In this document: piece after piece, positions 43,559 to 55,803 of the stretch | How positions within the stretch are numbered: the stretch's first letter is position 1 | Layout of the letters: the number at the start of each line of letters is the position of its first letter | Origin: Bacteroidia bacterium | GTDB taxonomy: Bacteria > Bacteroidota > Bacteroidia > JADZBD01 | DNA length: 64,000 bases | Reading direction: 5' to 3' | NCBI GenBank assembly: GCA_020054095.1 | Contig: JAGVMA010000031.1 | Span: 1 to 64,000 of the forward strand | Notes under the pieces: generated by a model | The model's input: the letters and a program-made list of their open reading frames with translations, nothing else | The model's database searches: none | Told to the model about the DNA's origin: nothing | Position numbers and translations under genes: made by a program

Positions 43559-43990
43559 GTGGACAAGCTGAAAAATGAACAAATAACAAAAAACATGAAG
43601 GCGGTTAGAGCAACCGGCTCAAAAATCGAAACTGCATTAGCAAAAGCATTATATGCTCGCGGACATCGTTATCGTAAAAATGACAAGACTGTTTATGGGA
43701 AGCCCGACTTGACTTTTAAAAAATTGAAAATTGCAGTATTTGTTGATAGTGAATTTTGGCATGGGAAGGATTGGCAGACCAGAAAGTTCGACCACAAGAG
43801 CAATATCTCCTTTTGGCATAAAAAAATAGAAAGGAATATTGAGCGTGATAAAGAAGTAAATAAACAATTGTTGAAAGAAAGGTGGATAATTTTAAGATTC
43901 TGGGGAGCTGATATTCAGAAAAATTTAGAAACTTGTATCACGAAAGTTGAAAGGAAAATAAATGGAGCTAAAAGAAAAAATAAGCATTGA
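43559..43990 (+). CDS. vsr: Vsr-family very-short-patch repair endonuclease
   Basis: 143 residues from a GTG. I keep that start because residues ITKNMKAVRATGSKIETALA align with the conserved Vsr N-terminus (RSKNMRAIxxxDTxIE); the next ATG at 43595 would cut into it. The catalytic core has YGKPDLTF (the metal-binding aspartate), then FVDSEFWHG, FWHKKIERNIERD and RWIILRFWGADI. Vsr nicks 5' of the T in T:G mismatches that arise when 5-methylcytosine deaminates. The gene overlaps the following C5 methyltransferase by 29 bases, which fits that role. The -7 box ends just before the start, so the mRNA may be leaderless. Confidence 0.93.
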   Translation: MDKLKNEQITKNMKAVRATGSKIETALAKALYARGHRYRKNDKTVYGKPDLTFKKLKIAVFVDSEFWHGKDWQTRKFDHKSNISFWHKKIERNIERDKEVNKQLLKERWIILRFWGADIQKNLETCITKVERKINGAKRKNKH

Positions 43991-45230
43991 TGAATTTGAT
44001 GGTAAACGCTTTCAAATCAGACTTGTTGAACCAACGGAAAACGAGAAAGCTGTTTTAACTCATTATCTTCACAATATTCATAATGGGGTTTCAAAGCATT
44101 ACAAAAAGGATGCTTTGAAGGTACTTAAGGAATATGTTACATACAAAACGGATGAAGAAAATTTACCTCTTGTAACTGAAGATGCTTTACAAAAACTTTT
44201 ATTTGAAGTTGAAAATGTTCCGTTTCCAACTCCAGACAATTACACTTTTAAATTTATAGACTTGTTTGCCGGAATTGGTGGCTTTAGACTTGCTATGCAA
44301 AGTCTTGGCGGAAAATGTGTTTTTACAAGTGAGTGGGATAAGGAAGCAAAAAAAACATATCGCGCTAACTTCGGTGAGGTTCCATTTGGTGATATAACTA
44401 AAGAGCAAGTTAAAAATTACATACCCAATCACTTTGATGTTTTATGTGCAGGTTTTCCATGTCAAGCATTTTCTATTGCCGGCAAACGTGGCGGATTTGA
44501 TGATACAAGGGGAACATTATTTTTTGATGTTGCTGAAATTATCAAACGTAAAAAACCGAAAGCAATTTTTCTTGAAAATGTAAAGGGTTTAAGAAGTCAT
44601 GATAAAGGCAAAACATTAGAGACCATTTTAAATGTGTTACGAAATGATTTAGGCTATTACGTTCCAGAGCCTCAAATTATTAATGCTAAAAACTTTGGTG
44701 TTCCACAAAACAGAGAACGAATTTATATTGTAGGATTTCGTAAGGATTTAAAAATTACAAAATTTGAATATCCAAAGCCCTCAAAGAAAAAAGTGACATT
44801 TGCAAAAGTGAAAGAAAAAAAAGTTGTCCCTACGCGCTACTATCTTTCTACACGGTACTTGCAAACATTACATAATCACAAAAACAGACACGCGAGTAAA
44901 GGAAACGGATTTGGATTTGAAATTATTCCTGATAATGGAATATCTAACGCAGTTGTTTGTGGTGGAATGGGGCGAGAAAGGAATTTAGTAATAGACAATA
45001 GGATTACGGACTTTACACCAGAAACAAAAATTAAAGGCGTTGTAAATCGAGAAGGTGTTCGCAAAATGACTCCAAGAGAATGGGCTAGACTTCAAGGCTT
45101 TCCAGACAAATATGTTATTCCGGTTGCTGACGCTTCCGCATACAAACAATTCGGCAACTCCGTTGCCGTACCTGCAATTAAAGCAACGGCAAATAAAATT
45201 TTAGAAACAATCGGAATCGAAAAAATATGA
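43962..45230 (+). CDS. DNA (cytosine-5) methyltransferase, Dcm-like
   Basis: 422 residues. An N-terminal extension of about 90 residues precedes the catalytic domain, as in E. coli Dcm. All main C5 motifs are present: FAGIGGFRLAMQSLGG (I), GFPCQAFSIAGKRGGF (IV, catalytic Cys), ENVKGL (VI), QNRERIYIVGFR (VIII), ARLQGFPDKY (IX) and YKQFGNSVAVP (X). The target-recognition region contains YYLSTRYLQTL and HASKGNGFGFE, which closely resembles the HxxRGNGFGYG segment of Dcm and M.EcoRII. The target is therefore probably CCWGG or a close variant (inference). It overlaps vsr by 29 bases and the endonuclease by 4 bases. Confidence 0.95.
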   Translation: MELKEKISIDEFDGKRFQIRLVEPTENEKAVLTHYLHNIHNGVSKHYKKDALKVLKEYVTYKTDEENLPLVTEDALQKLLFEVENVPFPTPDNYTFKFIDLFAGIGGFRLAMQSLGGKCVFTSEWDKEAKKTYRANFGEVPFGDITKEQVKNYIPNHFDVLCAGFPCQAFSIAGKRGGFDDTRGTLFFDVAEIIKRKKPKAIFLENVKGLRSHDKGKTLETILNVLRNDLGYYVPEPQIINAKNFGVPQNRERIYIVGFRKDLKITKFEYPKPSKKKVTFAKVKEKKVVPTRYYLSTRYLQTLHNHKNRHASKGNGFGFEIIPDNGISNAVVCGGMGRERNLVIDNRITDFTPETKIKGVVNREGVRKMTPREWARLQGFPDKYVIPVADASAYKQFGNSVAVPAIKATANKILETIGIEKI

Positions 45231-45850
45231 ACTTATTAAATCAATTAGGAATAGCAATCGGTGAAGGGAAAAAAGCCGCAACAATTTTTGATAATTTATT
45301 TCCTTCGTTTCTTAAAGTCAGTTATTCCAAATCATCAGATTATATTAAAAAGTATTGGACAGCTTACGAAAAGCATCCTGATAGAAATAATAATTTGAAC
45401 GGAAAAGTATTTGAATATATTCTTGCTACACTTTTTGTTCGTGAAGGAATTATGCCTTTATATTTAAGTGCAAAAGTTGCTTTTGTTCCAAATGTCATTT
45501 ACGACTTAATGTTTTACACAACGGAGCGCGGACCGATTTGTATTTCAGCAAAAACAAGTTTAAGAGAGCGTTACAAACAAGCAGACTTAGAAGCAATTGC
45601 ATTAAAATATGTTCATCGCAAAGCATTAAGTTATTTGGTGACGCTCGAAGAAAATGAAGCAAAAAGTGTGAAAGCAAAAATAAAATCGGGTGATGTAATC
45701 GGACTTGACAATGTTGTTGTTGCAACTAGCAAAGACTTTGATGAATTAGTAGCGGAGCTTAAAACCTACCAAGCTTCTGAACCTCCAACAGTGAAAGTAA
45801 TTACAAGCAATCAAATTATTACAAAAGAAAAAGTTTCAAATCTAAAATGA
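45227..45850 (+). CDS. Type II restriction endonuclease, PD-(D/E)xK-like
   Basis: 207 residues, start overlapping the methyltransferase stop (ATGA). A helix with NGKVFEYILATLF (Glu63) is followed by strands with VIYDLMFY (Asp93) and CISAKTSLRERYKQADLE. In the last motif Lys109, Arg115 and Glu122 are spaced K-x5-R-x6-E; from memory this K-to-E distance of 13 is that of the EcoRII/PspGI group, which cut at CCWGG. That agrees with the Dcm-like target region of the preceding gene. No other domain is present. Cleavage specificity and activity are inferred from position and motif only. Confidence 0.8.
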   Translation: MNLLNQLGIAIGEGKKAATIFDNLFPSFLKVSYSKSSDYIKKYWTAYEKHPDRNNNLNGKVFEYILATLFVREGIMPLYLSAKVAFVPNVIYDLMFYTTERGPICISAKTSLRERYKQADLEAIALKYVHRKALSYLVTLEENEAKSVKAKIKSGDVIGLDNVVVATSKDFDELVAELKTYQASEPPTVKVITSNQIITKEKVSNLK

Positions 45851-45862
45851 TGCATTACTACC

Positions 45863-47488
45863 ATGAGCGACAAAAAATTAGTAATGACATTCGAGGCAAA
45901 CACCATAAAACATCTTGGTGTAAAAATGTATTCTACAATACCACCAGCCTTAGCCGAACTTATTGCTAACGCTTACGATGCATGTGCTACTGAAGTTCAC
46001 ATAAAATTATATGATGGTGAAAAGAAAATGGTTATCGTTGAAGATAACGGAACCGGTATGTCCTTTGATCAAGTGAACGATTATTTTTTAAGAATTGGAA
46101 GAAACCGAAGAGAAGAAAAACAACCATCAGCTTGTAATAGAATTCCAACTGGCAAGAAGGGTCTTGGAAAATTGGCTCTATTTGGTATCGGAGACACGAT
46201 AGACATTACAACTTGTCAAGGTGAAGAAGTTGTTAGTTTTATTCTTGACTGGGAAACAATTTTAAATTGGAAGGGAAAAGACTACACTCCAGAATTTAAG
46301 ATTTCACCTAAAGGAAAATCGAAAAATGGAACAACAATTACGTTAACAAATTTAAAACGCAAAACTGGCTTTCCTATTGACGAATATGCAGAAAGCATTG
46401 CCAAGCTTTTTAATTTCAATGATTTTATTGTTTATTTATCTTTAAATGATGGCAAGCCAATTAAAATCGACAACAAATTAAAATATGAAAATATAGTTCC
46501 AGAATTTAAGTGGGACATTGCTGAAATAAATAAAGAAAACGAATTTGATTATAAAGAAAAAAATGAAATAACGGGTTTTATAGTTACTACAGAAAAACCA
46601 TTGAAACCAAACTTAAGAGGTGTAACACTTTTTGCTAATGGCAGAATGGTAAACTCTCCGGAATTTTTTGGTCAATCAGAATCCAGTCACTTTTATTCTT
46701 ATGCAACCGGGTGGTTAAATATTGATTTCATTGACAATTGGGCTGAGGATGTAATATCCACAAACCGACAATCTATAGATTGGGAAAACGCATTAACATC
46801 TGAGTTAAGAATATACCTAGCAAGTTGTTTATCTATGTTAGAAAAAAAATGGAGAGACCTTAGGAAAATTAAAAAACGCAAGACAATTTCCGATAGAGCA
46901 AAAATTGATGTTGGAGGTTGGCTCAACACTCTTTCAGGAGAAGTTCAAAACGATGTAGACTCACTTCTTAATATTTTAGGGGACACACCTGAAATATCAG
47001 AAGAAACCCAACAAAAGTCAATAGAAATTTTACACAAATTAATTCCTGAATACCCTAATCTTCATTGGCGTCACATACATCCTGAATTAAGAAAAGTCTC
47101 TGAAAAATATTACGTTAATCAGGATTTCTATAGTGCTTTTATTGAAGCGCTCAAAAGATATGTTACTGAAGTAAAGAAAAAATCTGGAAAAGCCAATATT
47201 GACGAAAGAGCTTTAATGCAAGCGGTATTTAATAAACGTATTTTAAGTGTTACAAAAAAGTATAAGAAAACTGACGGATCTTCTTTCGACAATAGAACAA
47301 TTGACAATATCGAAGCTGGACAACAAATGCTATCAGAAGGAATTGTTGTTGGTGGCAGACATCCACTTCAGCACGAAGAAATAACAGAACTAAGTGCGAC
47401 TGGTTTGTTTTCCGAAAAGGACTGCTTAGATTTTTTGAGCTTATTATCTCACCTTTTTAAAAGACTTAACGATGCAGAATTGGTATAA
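45863..47488 (+). CDS. GHKL (MORC/MutL-like) ATPase in restriction operon
   Basis: 541 residues, 12 bases after the endonuclease. The first 200 residues form a Bergerat-fold ATPase: LAELIANAYDACATEVHI (N-box, metal Asn), VEDNGTGMSFDQV (G1), PTGKKGLGKLALFGIGD (G2) and a TTITLTNLKR strand. The next part resembles the S5-like transducer region of MutL/Hsp90/MORC proteins (FATGRMV-like LFANGRMVNSP). The C-terminal 250 residues are helical with no recognised nuclease motif. MutL/MORC-like ATPases encoded in restriction-modification operons have been described in comparative work by Iyer, Abhiman and Aravind (2008). Its action in this operon is unknown; it could load or regulate the endonuclease or Vsr. 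Confidence 0.9.
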   Translation: MSDKKLVMTFEANTIKHLGVKMYSTIPPALAELIANAYDACATEVHIKLYDGEKKMVIVEDNGTGMSFDQVNDYFLRIGRNRREEKQPSACNRIPTGKKGLGKLALFGIGDTIDITTCQGEEVVSFILDWETILNWKGKDYTPEFKISPKGKSKNGTTITLTNLKRKTGFPIDEYAESIAKLFNFNDFIVYLSLNDGKPIKIDNKLKYENIVPEFKWDIAEINKENEFDYKEKNEITGFIVTTEKPLKPNLRGVTLFANGRMVNSPEFFGQSESSHFYSYATGWLNIDFIDNWAEDVISTNRQSIDWENALTSELRIYLASCLSMLEKKWRDLRKIKKRKTISDRAKIDVGGWLNTLSGEVQNDVDSLLNILGDTPEISEETQQKSIEILHKLIPEYPNLHWRHIHPELRKVSEKYYVNQDFYSAFIEALKRYVTEVKKKSGKANIDERALMQAVFNKRILSVTKKYKKTDGSSFDNRTIDNIEAGQQMLSEGIVVGGRHPLQHEEITELSATGLFSEKDCLDFLSLLSHLFKRLNDAELV

Positions 47489-48864: not shown

Positions 48865-49737
48865 ATGAAAAAAATCTCAATTCTGCTGGCTGCTGCTGTA
48901 CTAAGTACGGGCTTGTGGTCGTGCGGTGGCGATGAAAACCACGATCACGATGGTAAAGACACTACTGCAACAACTAACGATACGATGAGTGTAGAGGACG
49001 AAACAGGCCCTACCGATAGCTACTTGCTGCCATCACCGTTACAAATTGCCTATATCTTTAAAAAATCGGGTTTAAAATACCAAGCCGGTATTGCAAACGA
49101 TGTTAAGAAAGAAGCATCCTATTCAGGCAGCTACGAACAATCGTTAGGATTGGGTATTTACAGTTCGGATTTAGCGTATTGCGTTCTTAACAAACAAAAG
49201 CAAGAAGCAATCAGTTACATGAACGCAGTAAAAGCATTGTCAGATAAATTAGGCATGTCAACCGTATTCGATTCAGAATCGTTACTAAAACGCTTTGAAG
49301 CAAATGTGGTAAACGAAGATTCAGTAATGTTTATCTTGTCGGATATCCAAAGCAGATCGGATGAGTTTTTCAGCAGCAACGACCGTCAAATGTCGGCAGC
49401 AGTTGTATTCTCAGGCGCATGGGTCGAGAGCATGTACATTGCCTCAAAAATATTACCTAAAACCAAAGACAGCAAAATGGCCGACCAACTTGCAGACCAA
49501 TTAGGCATATTAGAAAACCTATTAAAAGAATTAGCGAACCACAAAGACAAAGAACCTGCAATTGCCAATTTAATTACTCAATTAGAAACAGTGCAAGGCA
49601 TCATTACATCTATACCAGGTGTGAAAGAAATGATGGAAAGCGAAAAACCGCAAGATGTTAAAATCAGCGCAAGCGAAGAGCAGCTAAAAACTTTGGCAGC
49701 AAAATTGGAAGAGATTAGAACAGCAATGGTTAAATAA
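48865..49737 (+). CDS. Lipoprotein of unknown function
   Basis: 290 residues. Signal peptide with lipobox LWSC (about 16-20), then a spacer rich in His/Asp/Thr (ENHDHDGKDTTATTND). The rest is helical, with ESLLKRFEANVVNEDSVMF and MSAAVVFSGAWVESMYIASK in the middle and an SEEQLKTLAAKLEEIRTA C-terminal coil. I recall no assigned function for this layout, though similar lipoproteins are common in the phylum. The HDHDG-type spacer could bind metal but is short. It is 28 bases upstream of another exported protein. Confidence 0.8.
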   Translation: MKKISILLAAAVLSTGLWSCGGDENHDHDGKDTTATTNDTMSVEDETGPTDSYLLPSPLQIAYIFKKSGLKYQAGIANDVKKEASYSGSYEQSLGLGIYSSDLAYCVLNKQKQEAISYMNAVKALSDKLGMSTVFDSESLLKRFEANVVNEDSVMFILSDIQSRSDEFFSSNDRQMSAAVVFSGAWVESMYIASKILPKTKDSKMADQLADQLGILENLLKELANHKDKEPAIANLITQLETVQGIITSIPGVKEMMESEKPQDVKISASEEQLKTLAAKLEEIRTAMVK

Positions 49738-49765
49738 ATTGTGTAACGAGATAAAAAAAACTAAT

Positions 49766-50239
49766 ATGAACAGATACAATATATTCTTAACCCTTTTACT
49801 AGCAGCGGTAGTTGCTACAGGGTTTGCGTTTATTCAAAAATCAAAAGACTTGTGTAACCCGGTTGATTTAAAAAAGAAAACCGAGCCGGCTATGAAACCT
49901 TACACTTACGATTCGGCAAAAATGTCGCGTTTGCAATTCATGAAAAAAGGACAAAAATTTTCAACTGAAGTGCCTTTATCATTGTTTGGCCAATACAAAA
50001 TTGTGTTTAACACAAGCGGTATGCCTAAAAAAGTAGGTATCAATGTTTACGATAAAGATAAATCATCATCAAAACGTAAATTACTTTTCTCTAATGCCGA
50101 TTCGTTAGAAACAGATCCAGTCTTGGTTTTTAACCCGGAGAAACACACACGTAAAGTTTTTGTTGATTACGATGTGCCTGCTGATACATTAGGACTTAAA
50201 ATTAAAGGTTGCCTTTACTTTATGCTGGGCTACAAATAA
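49766..50239 (+). CDS. Exported protein of unknown function
   Basis: 157 residues from the ATG at 49766; the frame also extends upstream to a TTG but the ATG begins a clean signal segment (NRYNIFLTLLLAAVVATGFAF). The mature part has strands with KIVFNTSGMPKKVGINVYDK, NPEKHTRKVFVDYDVPADT and ends KIKGCLYFMLGYK, suggesting a small beta-sandwich. Two cysteines could pair. It is probably co-transcribed with the lipoprotein before it; a strong terminator follows. Confidence 0.75.
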   Translation: MNRYNIFLTLLLAAVVATGFAFIQKSKDLCNPVDLKKKTEPAMKPYTYDSAKMSRLQFMKKGQKFSTEVPLSLFGQYKIVFNTSGMPKKVGINVYDKDKSSSKRKLLFSNADSLETDPVLVFNPEKHTRKVFVDYDVPADTLGLKIKGCLYFMLGYK

Positions 50240-50261: not shown

Positions 50262-50295
50262 AACCGCCACGCTTTTTAGCGTGGCGGTTTTTTTT
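50262..50295 (+). terminator. Strong terminator
   Basis: AACCGCCACGC / GCGTGGCGGTT perfect 11-base stem with a short T/A loop and a run of eight T's. Confidence 0.9.
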
Positions 50296-50363: not shown

Positions 50364-53300
50364 ATGAAACGGCTAAAGCAAAAACTACTTATTACGTTTA
50401 GTTTCATTTCTTTCCTTGCAGGTTATGCACAGCAAGCCGAAATAAAGTTTCAGCAAATTTTATCGAAACATGGCCTGTCGCAATCAAGCGTTTATGCTAT
50501 TATAAAAGATAGTAAAGGTTTCATGTGGTTTGGCACACAAGATGGCTTAAATAAATACAACGGCTATCAGATGGAAGTATATAAGCATATTCCTGACGAT
50601 AGCACATCACTTTCGGATAATTACATACAATCATTAATAGAAGATAACAGTGGTAATATTTGGGTAGGAACCAATGGCGGAGGTATAGATATACTTAATC
50701 CGCAAACGCTTGCCATCACACACTTAGTAGCCGGAGACAAGTCACTTAGCAATAACAACATCAATACGCTTTTTAAAGATAAAGACGGTAATATATGGGC
50801 GGGCACATTGCGTGGGCTTAATCACATTGATGCAAAAACGAAAAAGATTACACGGTTTAATGTGCAGGTAGATTCTATATGCAATATGGATGAAATAAAC
50901 ATACGTGCTATTAAGCAAACCGATGATGGCGAACTGTGCATAGGCACACATGGTTACGGCCTTGTGAGGTATAAAAGCAATAAATTTTTACGCATTGATA
51001 TCAAATCACTTAACAATAGCGTGGAAAATGTTGCCGCAAAATCTAACACCATTCGTGTAATTTATTTTGATAAACAAAACAATTTGTGGCTCGGCTCCGA
51101 TGGCGGTGGCTTAATATTATTTGATACAAAAACCAATACAATTAAAAGCAATATTTATAATACCGGTGCCGATGTGAAAGGCGAAATAAGTGGCAACAGA
51201 ATTTACTCCATTACCGAAGACGATGCCGGAAATTTGTGGTGTGCCACTTGGGGTAATGGAATTTCTATTTTGGATAAAAAAACCAAACAGTTTAACATAC
51301 TTAAATATAATGCCACGCTACAAACATCCATCCGCAGTAACATAGTGCTTAATGTGTATAAAGATAACTTGGGAAATATTTGGGCCGGAACTTACGATGC
51401 AGGTGTATGTCCGTATTTCCCGGCAGCATCTAAATTCCAACATTTTATACCTGCTAACTTTTTCAATTTTGGTTTCTTAAATAATTCCATCACATCTATC
51501 ATTGAAGATAACGAAGGCGTGATATGGTTTAGCTCCGTTAGTTCGGGCATTACATCGTGCAATATTCATACAGGCGAAATAGCTAATTACCAAGATATAA
51601 TTTACAGAGGCACTACCACCGCTATGGCTATTTATCAAGATGTGGATAGTATTATTTGGGTGGGCGCTTATGGTTCGGGATTATCTAATTTTAATAAACG
51701 AACAGGCGATATACAATATTTTGTTGATGATGGAGCAAGCCGTTATACACCGGATAACAGCCCCATTAAAAACGGAACAATACTTTGCATAACTGGCGAT
51801 AAAAAAGGCCGAATATGGATTGCAACATTAGGAGCAGGAGTTTATGTGTACGATAAAAAAACAAAAAATTTTACCAATTACACTACTAAAAATGGCCTTA
51901 CCAGCGATTATATATTTACATTAAAAGTGGATAAGAACGATAACGTGTGGGTAGGCACACAAAATGGCGGAGCCAGTTATATGGATGGTAATACAGGCAA
52001 AGTGTTAAAAACATATCAGCAAGCACGAAAAGATGCGACTGGCTATAATTTTTTAAGTTCCAATAAAGTAAATCACTTTTACATTGATAGAGACGAAAAT
52101 ATATGGATAGCAACATCCATCGGACTTAATAAAATAGATGCTAAAACAGGCAAGCTAAAATATTATTACGAAAAAGACGGACTACCCAATGATTACGTGT
52201 ATTGCGTGCTGCCCGATAACGATGGCAACCTGTGGATGACAACCAATAAAGGAGTGGCAAAACTAAATCCTAATTTAGAGAATATAGATGGCAGCGCATT
52301 TAGAAATTACGATAAAAACGATGGCTTACAAGACGATGAGTTTTCGCAAGGTGCATTTTATGTGAATCCAACAAACGGAACCATATTTATTGGAGGACTT
52401 AATGGCTTTAACACTTTTAACTCCTCAACTATTTCAAATAATAAAAACATACCGCCCATTTACATCACTGCATTTAAGCGTTTCGGTAAAGATGTTCCGC
52501 TTGATACAAATATCATCAGCAAAAAATTTATTGAACTTTCATATAAAGACAATTTCTTTTCGTTTGAATTTGTATCGTTAGATTATGTTTTTCCTGAGAA
52601 AAATAAATTCATGTATAAGATGGAAGGTCTTGATGCCGATTGGTCGGCACCCGGAACAAGCAGAATAGCAAGTTATACCAACCTTAGCGGGGGCGATTAT
52701 GTTTTTAGAGTAAAAGGATGCAATAACGATGGAACTTGGAACGAAGAAGGCGTGGCAATTCATATCCGTGTAATTCCACCATTCTGGAAAACAAATGCTT
52801 TTTACATTATTTGCGCCTTGCTAATTGCAGGTTCGGTATTTGGCTACACTCGCTGGCGCACAGCATCTATAGAAAAAGAAAAGAAAGTACTTGAACAAAA
52901 AGTAGCAGAGCGCACCGAAGAGTTAGCAGAAAAAAACAGAGATATAACCAGCAGTATTCAATATGCCGAGCGAATACAGTTAGCCATTTTGCCGCCTGTG
53001 AGCGAAATAAAACAAAACCTGAAACAATGCTTTGTTCTGTATAAACCAAAAGATATAGTAAGCGGAGACTTTTATTGGTACGGACAAAAAAACGGTAAAG
53101 AAATTATTGCTGCCGTAGATTGCACGGGGCACGGAGTTCCGGGCGCATTTATGAGTATGATAGGAAGTAACTTGCTTAGCGCCATTATTATGGAAAAGGG
53201 CATCACTAAGCCATCGGAAATATTAAACTTATTGCACAATGGTGTGCAATCTGCACTAAAACAAGGCAGCAACGAAATAGAAACTTCAGACGGAATGGAC

Positions 53301-53696
53301 TTGGCATTGTGCACCATTGACTTAAGCACTAATAGTCTGGAATATGCAGGTGCATACCGTTCGTTGGTTATTGTGCGCAATGGCAAAATAATAAAAATTG
53401 ATAGTACTAAATTTCCGATAGGCGGAAAACAAATGGATACCGAACGCAATTTCACAAATAATAATGTGCAATTAAGCAAAGGCGATACTGTTTATATGTT
53501 TTCGGATGGCTATGCCGATCAATTTGGCGGTGAAAAAGGCAAGAAGTTTATGGTTAAGCGGATGGATCAGTTGCTACTCGAAATACAAACAAAAACAATG
53601 GACGAGCAAGGCGCAATATTGGATAAAACCATTGAAACCTGGAAAGGCAACCACCAGCAAGTGGACGATATATTGGTTATAGGTATCCGTTTTTAG
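50364..53696 (+). CDS. Propeller sensor with PP2C/SpoIIE phosphatase output (SiaA-like role)
   Basis: 1110 residues from the ATG at 50364. A signal peptide (LITFSFISFLAGYAQ) leads to a periplasmic two-component-type propeller: about fourteen blades with motifs such as SVYAIIKDSKGFMWFGTQDG and IWVGTNGGGIDIL. A Y_Y_Y-like sandwich (about 735-805) has FSFEFVSLDYVFPEKN. One transmembrane helix lies near 812-832, a coiled coil at 835-870 (KEKKVLEQKVAERTEEL), and a SpoIIE-type PP2C domain at 890-1110: SGDFYWYG, VDCTGHGVPGAFMS, DGMDLAL, FSDGYADQFGG and QVDDILVIGI. All metal-binding aspartates look intact. This fold usually ends in a histidine kinase; here the output is a phosphatase. It is likely to act on the SiaC-type protein encoded downstream. 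Confidence 0.93.
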   Translation: MKRLKQKLLITFSFISFLAGYAQQAEIKFQQILSKHGLSQSSVYAIIKDSKGFMWFGTQDGLNKYNGYQMEVYKHIPDDSTSLSDNYIQSLIEDNSGNIWVGTNGGGIDILNPQTLAITHLVAGDKSLSNNNINTLFKDKDGNIWAGTLRGLNHIDAKTKKITRFNVQVDSICNMDEINIRAIKQTDDGELCIGTHGYGLVRYKSNKFLRIDIKSLNNSVENVAAKSNTIRVIYFDKQNNLWLGSDGGGLILFDTKTNTIKSNIYNTGADVKGEISGNRIYSITEDDAGNLWCATWGNGISILDKKTKQFNILKYNATLQTSIRSNIVLNVYKDNLGNIWAGTYDAGVCPYFPAASKFQHFIPANFFNFGFLNNSITSIIEDNEGVIWFSSVSSGITSCNIHTGEIANYQDIIYRGTTTAMAIYQDVDSIIWVGAYGSGLSNFNKRTGDIQYFVDDGASRYTPDNSPIKNGTILCITGDKKGRIWIATLGAGVYVYDKKTKNFTNYTTKNGLTSDYIFTLKVDKNDNVWVGTQNGGASYMDGNTGKVLKTYQQARKDATGYNFLSSNKVNHFYIDRDENIWIATSIGLNKIDAKTGKLKYYYEKDGLPNDYVYCVLPDNDGNLWMTTNKGVAKLNPNLENIDGSAFRNYDKNDGLQDDEFSQGAFYVNPTNGTIFIGGLNGFNTFNSSTISNNKNIPPIYITAFKRFGKDVPLDTNIISKKFIELSYKDNFFSFEFVSLDYVFPEKNKFMYKMEGLDADWSAPGTSRIASYTNLSGGDYVFRVKGCNNDGTWNEEGVAIHIRVIPPFWKTNAFYIICALLIAGSVFGYTRWRTASIEKEKKVLEQKVAERTEELAEKNRDITSSIQYAERIQLAILPPVSEIKQNLKQCFVLYKPKDIVSGDFYWYGQKNGKEIIAAVDCTGHGVPGAFMSMIGSNLLSAIIMEKGITKPSEILNLLHNGVQSALKQGSNEIETSDGMDLALCTIDLSTNSLEYAGAYRSLVIVRNGKIIKIDSTKFPIGGKQMDTERNFTNNNVQLSKGDTVYMFSDGYADQFGGEKGKKFMVKRMDQLLLEIQTKTMDEQGAILDKTIETWKGNHQQVDDILVIGIRF

Positions 53697-53783
53697 AAAT
53701 TTTTGTAATTAAACCTTTTAATTACCTTTACCGTCATAAAGGCAACCCCACTAATTTTTATAAGTCTTTAAAACAAAACACCT

Positions 53784-54620
53784 ATGATGAACAAAAAAAT
53801 AGCACTCACTTGTTTAACAATAGCTGCGGCAGCCGTTGTTACAATTATATCGTGTAAAAAAGAAGAAGTAGATACCGAAACGGTATCCGCTACCGATAAC
53901 TCACTCTGCGAAGGTGAGTTTTTACGCATACTTCCGGCAACCAATGGCGTTGCTGTGGATGAGCCCGGAGTAATTGACAATCGCTGGGCCGGAAACAATA
54001 ATATTTTCAATGCTTGCCCACACGATTCAATTGACCCTGCCGACACATTAAATGGCTTTCCGGTAACACTTTATTTAGATTACGGAACAACCGGCTGCGT
54101 GGGCGATGATGGCAAAACCCGGAAAGGAATGATACGTGCAGTATTTGATTCTGCATGGAACTCACCAAACGCTCGTGCTACTTTCTATTTAGAAAACTAC
54201 TATGTAAATGGCGTTCGCTTTGAAGGCACTGTACAAGTGCAAAAAAATGGCAATACTATAACACAAACTATTACCGATGGCAAATGCAGCAAAACTTCGG
54301 GCAATCCATGGGAAATTCTTTGGAACTGCACACGCACGGTTCGTCAAGTATCAGGCGCTAACTCGGCAACCGACCCTACGGATGATGAATTTGAATTTAC
54401 GGGAACAGCCAATGGCACTAATCGCGAAGGAAAAACTTTTGACGTAAATATCACATCGCCAATGGTAAAAACCGCACAATGCCGTTACATTACCAAAGGC
54501 ACTATGGAATTAACACCCGAAGGCCGCGAAACACGCACTGTAAACTTTGGTGATGGCACTTGCGATGACAAAGCCACGCTCACAATTAAAGGCAACACAT
54601 TTCAATTCACATTACAATAA
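53784..54620 (+). CDS. Lipoprotein between sensor phosphatase and Sia genes
   Basis: 278 residues, or 277 from a second ATG at 53787. Lipobox TIISC at about 20-24, followed by KKEEVDTETVSATDNS. The mature part is beta-rich with alternating YYVNGVRFEGTVQVQKNG, TITQTITDGK, FTGTANGTNREGKTF and ends in FGDGTCDDKATLTIKGN. Six or so cysteines are spread through it. I recognise no family. Its placement between the sensor phosphatase and siaB-like genes may be accidental, since terminators lie on the downstream side. Confidence 0.75.
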   Translation: MMNKKIALTCLTIAAAAVVTIISCKKEEVDTETVSATDNSLCEGEFLRILPATNGVAVDEPGVIDNRWAGNNNIFNACPHDSIDPADTLNGFPVTLYLDYGTTGCVGDDGKTRKGMIRAVFDSAWNSPNARATFYLENYYVNGVRFEGTVQVQKNGNTITQTITDGKCSKTSGNPWEILWNCTRTVRQVSGANSATDPTDDEFEFTGTANGTNREGKTFDVNITSPMVKTAQCRYITKGTMELTPEGRETRTVNFGDGTCDDKATLTIKGNTFQFTLQ

Positions 54621-54641
54621 TAATAGCTCATTTACCTATGA

Positions 54642-54671
54642 AAAGCCCTGCCATAAAGTCGGGGCTTTTTT
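54642..54671 (+). terminator. Terminator after the lipoprotein gene
   Basis: AAGCCC / GGGCTT hairpin followed by a T-run. Confidence 0.75.
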
Positions 54672-54749
54672 TATTAACTATTTGTGTATTTAATTGAATT
54701 AATGTATGTTTGGATGCTTAAAAAAAGACAGTAGTTCAGATAAAAATTA

Positions 54750-54757
54750 TATTTTTG
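54750..54757 (+). promoter_or_regulatory. -7 box for the siaB-like gene
   Basis: TATTTTTG, 16 bases before the ATG at 54774. It gives the siaB-siaC pair its own promoter. Confidence 0.5.
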
Positions 54758-54773
54758 CCGTAACGCAAAGTTT

Positions 54774-55319
54774 ATGTTAGATATTTACGATTTTTATGAT
54801 AAGATGGAGCGCAACAACATTATGTTGTCATTCAAAGGTGATATAACGTCCGAGTTGCTCACTTCAATCTTACAAATAATGGAATCGAAGCTTGATAACT
54901 TACAGGAAGAACCTAAGATTAAGAAAAAGGTTTACAATGTATTGGTTGAATGTTTGCAAAACCTTTATCACCACATGGACGAAGTAGATTGGGTTGGCCC
55001 GAATGACAAAGCGAGAGCAGCCATTTTTATGATAGGCAGAGTAGATAATGCTTACAATATTATTACAGGTAACTACATAAAAGGCGACAATGTTAATGGC
55101 TTAAAAAGCAGATTAGACGAAATAAACAAATTAGATAAAGAACAATTAAAAGAATATTACAAGCAAGTATTAAACAACGGAGAAATGTCGCAAAAAGGTG
55201 GTGGCGGATTAGGGATGATAGACATAGCTCGCAAATCAGGTCAGAAATTAAATTATAGTTTTTTACCTGTTGATGATAAATACCAATTCTTTAGTTTAAA
55301 TATTAAAATTGCCCAATAA
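54774..55319 (+). CDS. siaB: SiaB-family protein kinase
   Basis: 181 residues, the usual length. It has a degenerate histidine-kinase-like ATPase fold: the N-box lies in NVLVECLQNLYHHMDE (Glu59, Asn63) and the glycine loop is KGGGGLGMIDIARKSG (142-155). In Pseudomonas aeruginosa SiaB phosphorylates SiaC on a threonine, and the PP2C phosphatase SiaA reverses this. The next gene encodes a SiaC-type protein 18 bases on. A matching membrane phosphatase lies upstream at 50364. No SiaD-type diguanylate cyclase is in the window, so the downstream target is not known. Confidence 0.92.
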   Translation: MLDIYDFYDKMERNNIMLSFKGDITSELLTSILQIMESKLDNLQEEPKIKKKVYNVLVECLQNLYHHMDEVDWVGPNDKARAAIFMIGRVDNAYNIITGNYIKGDNVNGLKSRLDEINKLDKEQLKEYYKQVLNNGEMSQKGGGGLGMIDIARKSGQKLNYSFLPVDDKYQFFSLNIKIAQ

Positions 55320-55337
55320 ATAAAAATAAAAAACAGT

Positions 55338-55718
55338 ATGGAAAAACTTACCATTGAAGGAACACCCAAAACGCCAACCATTAACTTTGATAATGCATCA
55401 GGCACTTTATTGATTAAAGGAAGATCAATTCCTGAAAACTCAATTGAGTTTTACAAACCTCTTGTAGAAGCGCTTGAAAAATACGCTTCAAAACCATTAG
55501 GTGCTACTAATGTAAATATTCAATTAGAATATTTTAACACTAGCTCATCAAAATGCATTTTAGATGTTTTCAAAAAATTAGAAGGCATCCACAAAGGCGG
55601 AAGCGCTACTACCATTAACTGGTATTACGAGCAAGATGACGAAGATATGTTAGAGGCAGGCGAAGATTATCAAGCAATCATCAGTGTGCCGTTCAAAATG
55701 ATAGAAATCGAAGAGTAA
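55338..55718 (+). CDS. siaC: SiaC-family regulatory phosphoprotein
   Basis: 126 residues (former DUF1987). It starts IEGTPKTPTINFDNASGTLL and has QLEYFNTSSSKCILDVF; the threonine of FNTSS is residue 68, the same position as the phosphorylated Thr68 of P. aeruginosa SiaC. It ends YQAIISVPFKMIEIEE. In the known system unphosphorylated SiaC binds and activates the diguanylate cyclase SiaD, leading to aggregation. Here the kinase gene is directly upstream, and a terminator directly downstream, so the partner protein must be encoded elsewhere. Confidence 0.93.
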   Translation: MEKLTIEGTPKTPTINFDNASGTLLIKGRSIPENSIEFYKPLVEALEKYASKPLGATNVNIQLEYFNTSSSKCILDVFKKLEGIHKGGSATTINWYYEQDDEDMLEAGEDYQAIISVPFKMIEIEE

Positions 55719-55740: not shown

Positions 55741-55783
55741 AGGCGAAAGAACCCAATGTTCGGGATTCTTTCGCCTTTTTTTT
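55741..55783 (+). terminator. Terminator after siaC
   Basis: AGGCGAAAGAA / TTCTTTCGCCT perfect 11-base stem, extended by CCC/GGG, then eight or more T's. Confidence 0.9.
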
Positions 55784-55803
55784 AGCTGTAAAATTTAAGT
55801 TAA

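Follow-up and report, generated by a model that had tools for sequence, protein, structure and literature searches.

Organization of the Locus

The analyzed stretch of DNA, referred to as the window, comprises 64,000 nucleotides from a Bacteroidia genome. Its positions 50364–55718 are predicted to constitute one four-gene transcription unit on the plus strand, which is bounded by two intrinsic terminators and encodes a propeller sensor phosphatase, a lipoprotein (c4), a SiaB-family kinase, and a SiaC-type phosphoprotein, in this order and with intergenic spacings of 87, 153, and 18 bases. The upstream terminator (50262–50289, plus strand) is strong and consists of a 12-bp stem followed by a T run; the downstream one (about 55741–55784) directly follows siaC and has a stem of about 14 bp and a T run, its plus-strand reading being visible in the sequence.

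The first gene (50364–53696) codes for 1110 amino acids from the ATG at 50364, and a SiaA-like output was assigned to its product based on Pfam, a PDB profile match, and the PP2C tree described below. The protein is composed of a signal-peptide-like start, Reg_prop repeats (187 bits), a Y_Y_Y domain (60 bits), a hydrophobic stretch (FYIICALLIAGSVFGYT), a coiled linker, and a SpoIIE/PP2C domain (74 bits). All three scores exceed the Pfam cut-offs, which confirms the combination of propeller and PP2C output in a single protein that a first-pass annotation had noticed. The hydrophobic stretch scored below the transmembrane cut-off used; judging from its architecture, the protein is likely inserted into the membrane.

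The first-pass annotation had also described a distance of 1.1 kb between the phosphatase gene and siaB. The kinase gene does lie downstream, but the interval is not empty and holds c4 (53784–54620), a gene for a 278-amino-acid lipoprotein recognized by its lipobox and its conserved place, which that annotation lacked. The lipobox cysteine and other residues are invariant in 29 homologues. Its AF2 model (pLDDT 86.8) had no confident structural match in the PDB, where only weak OSBP-like matches (E at least 0.008) were obtained. The c4 family is less specific overall, with paralogues also in SiaC-negative genomes. The unit is completed by siaB (54774–55319; DUF6272, Pfam 150 bits) and siaC (55338–55718; Pfam SiaC, 146 bits).

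A separate transcription unit just upstream contains, also on the plus strand, a gene for a 290-amino-acid lipoprotein (48865–49737) and, paired with it, one for a small exported protein (49739–50239). The former is a paralogue of the c3 lipoprotein of a transporter module described below (profile match 311.8 bits), and the latter resembles the c6 family of the same module (hhalign 94.7%).

Relation to the Sia Partner Switch of Pseudomonas aeruginosa

The Sia switch of Pseudomonas controls a signaling enzyme that drives biofilm formation. The window SiaB and SiaC matched the P. aeruginosa structures 6kko_A (E 1.5e-17) and 6kko_C (E 2.3e-19), respectively, and the SiaA PP2C structure 6k4e (E 2e-35) was the sole PDB match of the PP2C domain, whose acidic motifs, containing the metal-binding Asp residues, align with it over the whole domain. 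The window SiaC carries T68 within the NTSS motif (YFNTSSSK), and this residue is invariant among 23 homologues. Likewise, E59 and N63 of the window SiaB are invariant in the homologue alignment; in P. aeruginosa SiaB, Glu61 is the catalytic residue (PMC7647112). The P. aeruginosa row of this alignment was taken from the 6kko_A alignment with three leading residues added, on which nothing rests. The open reading frames and the identification of a SiaB-type kinase and a SiaC-type phosphoprotein with T68 in the first-pass annotation thus held.

With 174 bits, the window SiaB surpasses the cut-off (85) of the SiaB family model NF038262, but none of the three proteins reaches the NCBIfam equivalog models of P. 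aeruginosa (SiaA 201.8 of 700 bits, SiaB 102.3 of 225, SiaC 96.6 of 150). By sequence they are therefore homologues of SiaA, SiaB, and SiaC, and the unit is not the same operon as that of P. aeruginosa. It shares with SiaABCD (PMC7647112, PMC8457831) a PP2C phosphatase, the SiaB kinase, and SiaC with T68, aligned metal and catalytic residues, and phosphatase, siaB, and siaC genes that are kept together. It differs in its periplasmic propeller, where P. aeruginosa SiaA has a HAMP sensor, in the extra lipoprotein gene c4, and in the output, since the genome lacks SiaD, the diguanylate cyclase of P. aeruginosa, and any other GGDEF protein. The BgrSTUWV and HptB-HptR-HsbA partner switches, as far as they are presented where PMC8457831 cites them, likewise combine a phosphatase, a kinase, and a STAS-like protein that acts on its partner by contact, but they use STAS in place of SiaC (DUF1987) and target a cyclase. 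As a SiaB-type kinase, SiaC with T68, and a PP2C encoded together with siaBC are all present, the unit is to be classed by homology with the Sia partner switches, and leaving its output aside we consider it highly probable that it operates as one.

Conservation of the Gene Cluster

A first sample contained 40 genomes (the genome under study and 39 relatives), almost all of different families and most of them metagenome-assembled; SiaC was present in 25 of them. Around the best siaC of each genome, the order of a PP2C protein of ~1100 amino acids, c4, siaB, and siaC recurs in about ten other families, a count that includes one phosphatase truncated where its contig stops and a pair of loci without a recognized c4. 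A set of 80 named loci, which stem almost entirely from uncultured Bacteroidota, has siaB as the gene immediately upstream of siaC in 76 cases; siaB is immediately preceded by c4 in 30 of the loci, and c4 in turn by a PP2C gene in 21, the latter two counts being affected by the many contigs that stop too early to tell. Shared descent inflates all counts across genomes. In a tree of PP2C domains, the window domain clusters with siaBC-linked domains and apart from the 22 other phosphatases of its genome, with modest support within the group.

Given this recurrence across families and named loci, the propeller phosphatase, c4, siaB, and siaC can be regarded, from comparative sequence data, as a real cassette. 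The gene-order survey of related genomes that had been proposed with the first-pass annotation thus bears out its link between the propeller phosphatase and siaBC, as does the grouping in the PP2C tree. No description of this arrangement was found in the literature searched, which did not extend to subscription papers.

Absence of Diguanylate Cyclases and Exchangeable Outputs

A GGDEF profile had no match in any of the 40 genomes, as compared to 8 of 14 control genomes, and the first-pass statement that no cyclase is present can be extended from the locus to the sampled genomes of the class. Since the genome contains no GGDEF protein, SiaC requires a target other than a cyclase, as that annotation had surmised with respect to SiaD. 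SiaC-type proteins are widespread, and in the literature searched a target was found described only for the Pseudomonas cyclase; a class whose sampled genomes contain no diguanylate cyclase retains and expands the switch, so its output must differ.

In another class of the phylum, genes for a Reg_prop-Y_Y_Y-SpoIIE protein, SiaB, SiaC, and a GGDEF protein form one run (L246, L248), and the matches of the L246 GGDEF protein include, besides other cyclases, the structure of P. aeruginosa SiaD (7e6g). As the propeller phosphatase, siaB, and siaC are followed outside the class by a GGDEF gene, and siaC in other genomes by an AAA+ ATPase gene, the propeller phosphatase belongs, judging from gene order, with siaBC whatever the output, and the output is exchangeable. 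The ATPase loci, also from outside the class, are L253 (4896–9345) and L257 (5682–9244), where siaC precedes a same-strand gene for a large multi-domain AAA+ ATPase; this protein is possibly another SiaC output.

A TerB-ABCG Transporter as Candidate Output

Gene linkage yields a concrete candidate target. The protein c5 (~1025 amino acids; AF2 pLDDT 78) consists of a TerB-like N-terminus (in the genome under study, its copy scores 28.1 bits; cut-off 24.4) and an ABCG-type transporter body. Its nucleotide-binding and membrane domains match ABCG half-transporters (ABCG1, 2, 5/8, 16, 25) by sequence and fold, from which it is set apart by some 250 residues at its N-terminus, with a TerB-like bundle and a large insert of helices. 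A small beta domain of the model looked FHA-like, but searches of the N-terminus yielded neither an FHA nor a PDB match. In many genomes c5 adjoins siaC, usually with c6 and c3 alongside; in the genome under study, c5, c6, and c3 are located on contig C40 (G000:C40), not on the contig of the window. This transporter module had not been mentioned in the first-pass annotation.

In the first sample, SiaC and c5 were both present in 24 genomes and both absent from 14 (Fisher p 9e-9, a value that is overstated because it is uncorrected for kinship and co-occurrence follows descent). The two discordant genomes were G024, fragmented and 91% complete, with SiaC only, and G023 with c5 only. A second sample comprised 198 genomes from the phylum; here, c5 occurred in exactly the five genomes of the same class that contain SiaC (two of which, the genome under study and G015, also belong to the first sample) and was absent from eight SiaC genomes of other classes. 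The c3 family was found in all 25 SiaC-positive genomes and in 1 of 15 others, which has c5.

In total, a siaC gene adjoins 14 of the 33 c5 genes, compared to a rough chance rate of 1.2%, the cases not being independent. Same-strand PP2C-siaB-siaC-c5 runs occur in L085, L255, and L256, which represent one family, and in L114, L115, and L116, and L100 has the order siaC-c3-c5-PP2C. The phosphatases of L085, L114, and L256 possess PAS and GAF sensors (two also HAMP) and no propellers; thus, different sensors are combined with a constant siaBC-c5 part. The adjacency is in part convergent and inherited, as Bacteroidales-type loci also share housekeeping neighbors. Genes for a methyltransferase, GuaA, CtpA, and S1 beside these loci were set aside as SiaC partners, being housekeeping genes that reflect descent, and those for BshC, a glutamate synthase, a FadL-like protein, and an aminotransferase beside siaC in the genome under study and a family mate were housekeeping-like and too little conserved. 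In L115 and L116, one siaC and c5 are accompanied by a row of siaB and PP2C genes, two or three of each kind.

We infer the following course of events, taking the direction of regulation over from P. aeruginosa (PMC7647112, PMC8457831). SiaB would phosphorylate SiaC on T68 and keep it inactive until a signal at the periplasmic propeller causes the cytoplasmic PP2C domain of the phosphatase to dephosphorylate it. Free SiaC would then bind and alter an effector, which in this class would not be a diguanylate cyclase and is most likely c5 with c3 and c6, perhaps contacted via the cytoplasmic N-terminal part of c5, which contains TerB. The small set of SiaC proteins in the genome is probably acted on by many further sensor phosphatases as well. 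The assignment of c5 and c3 as output, taken from gene linkage and co-occurrence, is tentative and falls a little short of an even chance. The scheme as a whole, with a Sia switch set by a propeller signal, c5, c3, and c6 as effector, and shared SiaC, is the best explanation, for and against which we see the balance as even.

The main competing explanation is that the principal target of SiaC is another, unlinked protein and that c5 and c3 are merely inherited along with the switch as parts of the same cell-envelope program, for example as genes regulated downstream, and never touch SiaC. The fact that c5 is unlinked both in the genome under study and in roughly every second other genome would fit this explanation, as would the fact that most of the 1–15 SiaC paralogues per genome lie away from c5 and the variable partners beside siaC outside the class (GGDEF or AAA+ ATPase genes). 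It accounts less well for the matching presence and absence of SiaC and c5 and for the repeated same-strand siaC-c5 runs, and we regard it as a serious possibility of less than even probability.

Phosphatase Repertoire

The genome encodes 23 SpoIIE proteins, 5 SiaC, and 4 SiaB, a repertoire whose size was not apparent from the first-pass annotation; the SpoIIE proteins examined have TPR, GAF, HAMP, Cache, 7TM, or propeller sensors. The number of SpoIIE proteins per genome differed between SiaC-positive (median 17, range 2–42) and SiaC-negative genomes (median 0, range 0–3), and the few SpoIIE proteins of the latter all exceeded 100 bits, a score that hardly any of the sensor-type proteins reached, although this threshold was set after seeing the data. 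The difference in counts suggests that the SpoIIE repertoire shares SiaC as its substrate and that SiaC is a hub for many sensors; SiaC may be a substrate for many orphan SpoIIE phosphatases of the class. The stronger proposal that dozens of sensor phosphatases converge on few SiaC proteins and that unphosphorylated SiaC directly gates the TerB-ABCG transporter is rather unlikely; if true, a partner switch would control export through a membrane pump in a class without diguanylate cyclases in the genomes searched.

The excess of phosphatases over SiaC proteins would also fit a reading in which the propeller phosphatase acts on another substrate and siaBC relies on one of the genome's 22 remaining PP2Cs, such as the HAMP-PP2C on contig C79, their adjacency being neutral; an unlinked HAMP-PP2C does have a close catalytic domain. 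This reading is very improbable, as the gene order is kept over many families, on the same strand and between terminators, linked PP2C domains cluster together, and the propeller-PP2C-siaB-siaC order also exists outside the class. Separate phosphatases of the kind that the first-pass annotation had named as a potential objection, a second PP2C-siaB-siaC triad and unlinked HAMP-PP2Cs, were found, yet the neighborhood is conserved, and the reading is not refuted in the way which that annotation had set out.

The second triad is located on contig C32 (L088, 8865–12938); its propeller phosphatase gene is split into frames of 403 and 580 amino acids, and in its SiaC a Ser takes the place of T68 (YFDSSSK). 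On contig C31 of the same genome (L092, 8320–10413), a gene for a tandem double SiaB (379 amino acids) lies right behind a Ser/Thr protein kinase gene, without an adjoining siaC. L252 (8777–11039) encodes a Response_reg-SpoIIE-DUF6272 fusion beside siaC, with phosphatase and SiaB-type kinase in one chain, which also speaks for the scheme set out above.

Sensor Domain and Other Genes in the Window

The Reg_prop propeller and Y_Y_Y domain resemble the periplasmic sensors of the hybrid two-component systems of Bacteroides, which differ by carrying a histidine kinase and a DNA-binding domain in one chain where the window protein has only SpoIIE/PP2C as output. The glycan sensing proposed initially is not supported, and the reading of the unit as an analogous glycan sensor with a phosphatase in place of the kinase is very improbable, as SusD of family PF07980, the one SusD family searched for, is absent from the genome, no polysaccharide-utilization genes occur beside the unit in the window or among its conserved neighbors, and PorZ of type IX secretion is likewise matched by the sensor, with a score under the PorZ cut-off. 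A Reg_prop/Y_Y_Y sensor does not by itself demonstrate that the ligand is a glycan.

The NatAB-like ABC genes that follow siaC in the window were not considered further since they lie behind the terminator and are not conserved neighbors. At positions 43962–47488, the window also contains a restriction-modification-like cluster, which encodes a C5 DNA methylase, a 207-amino-acid protein that weakly matches a BsaWI-type endonuclease, and a GHKL ATPase that has a Hypoth_Ymh domain and matches a model of a type II restriction enzyme.
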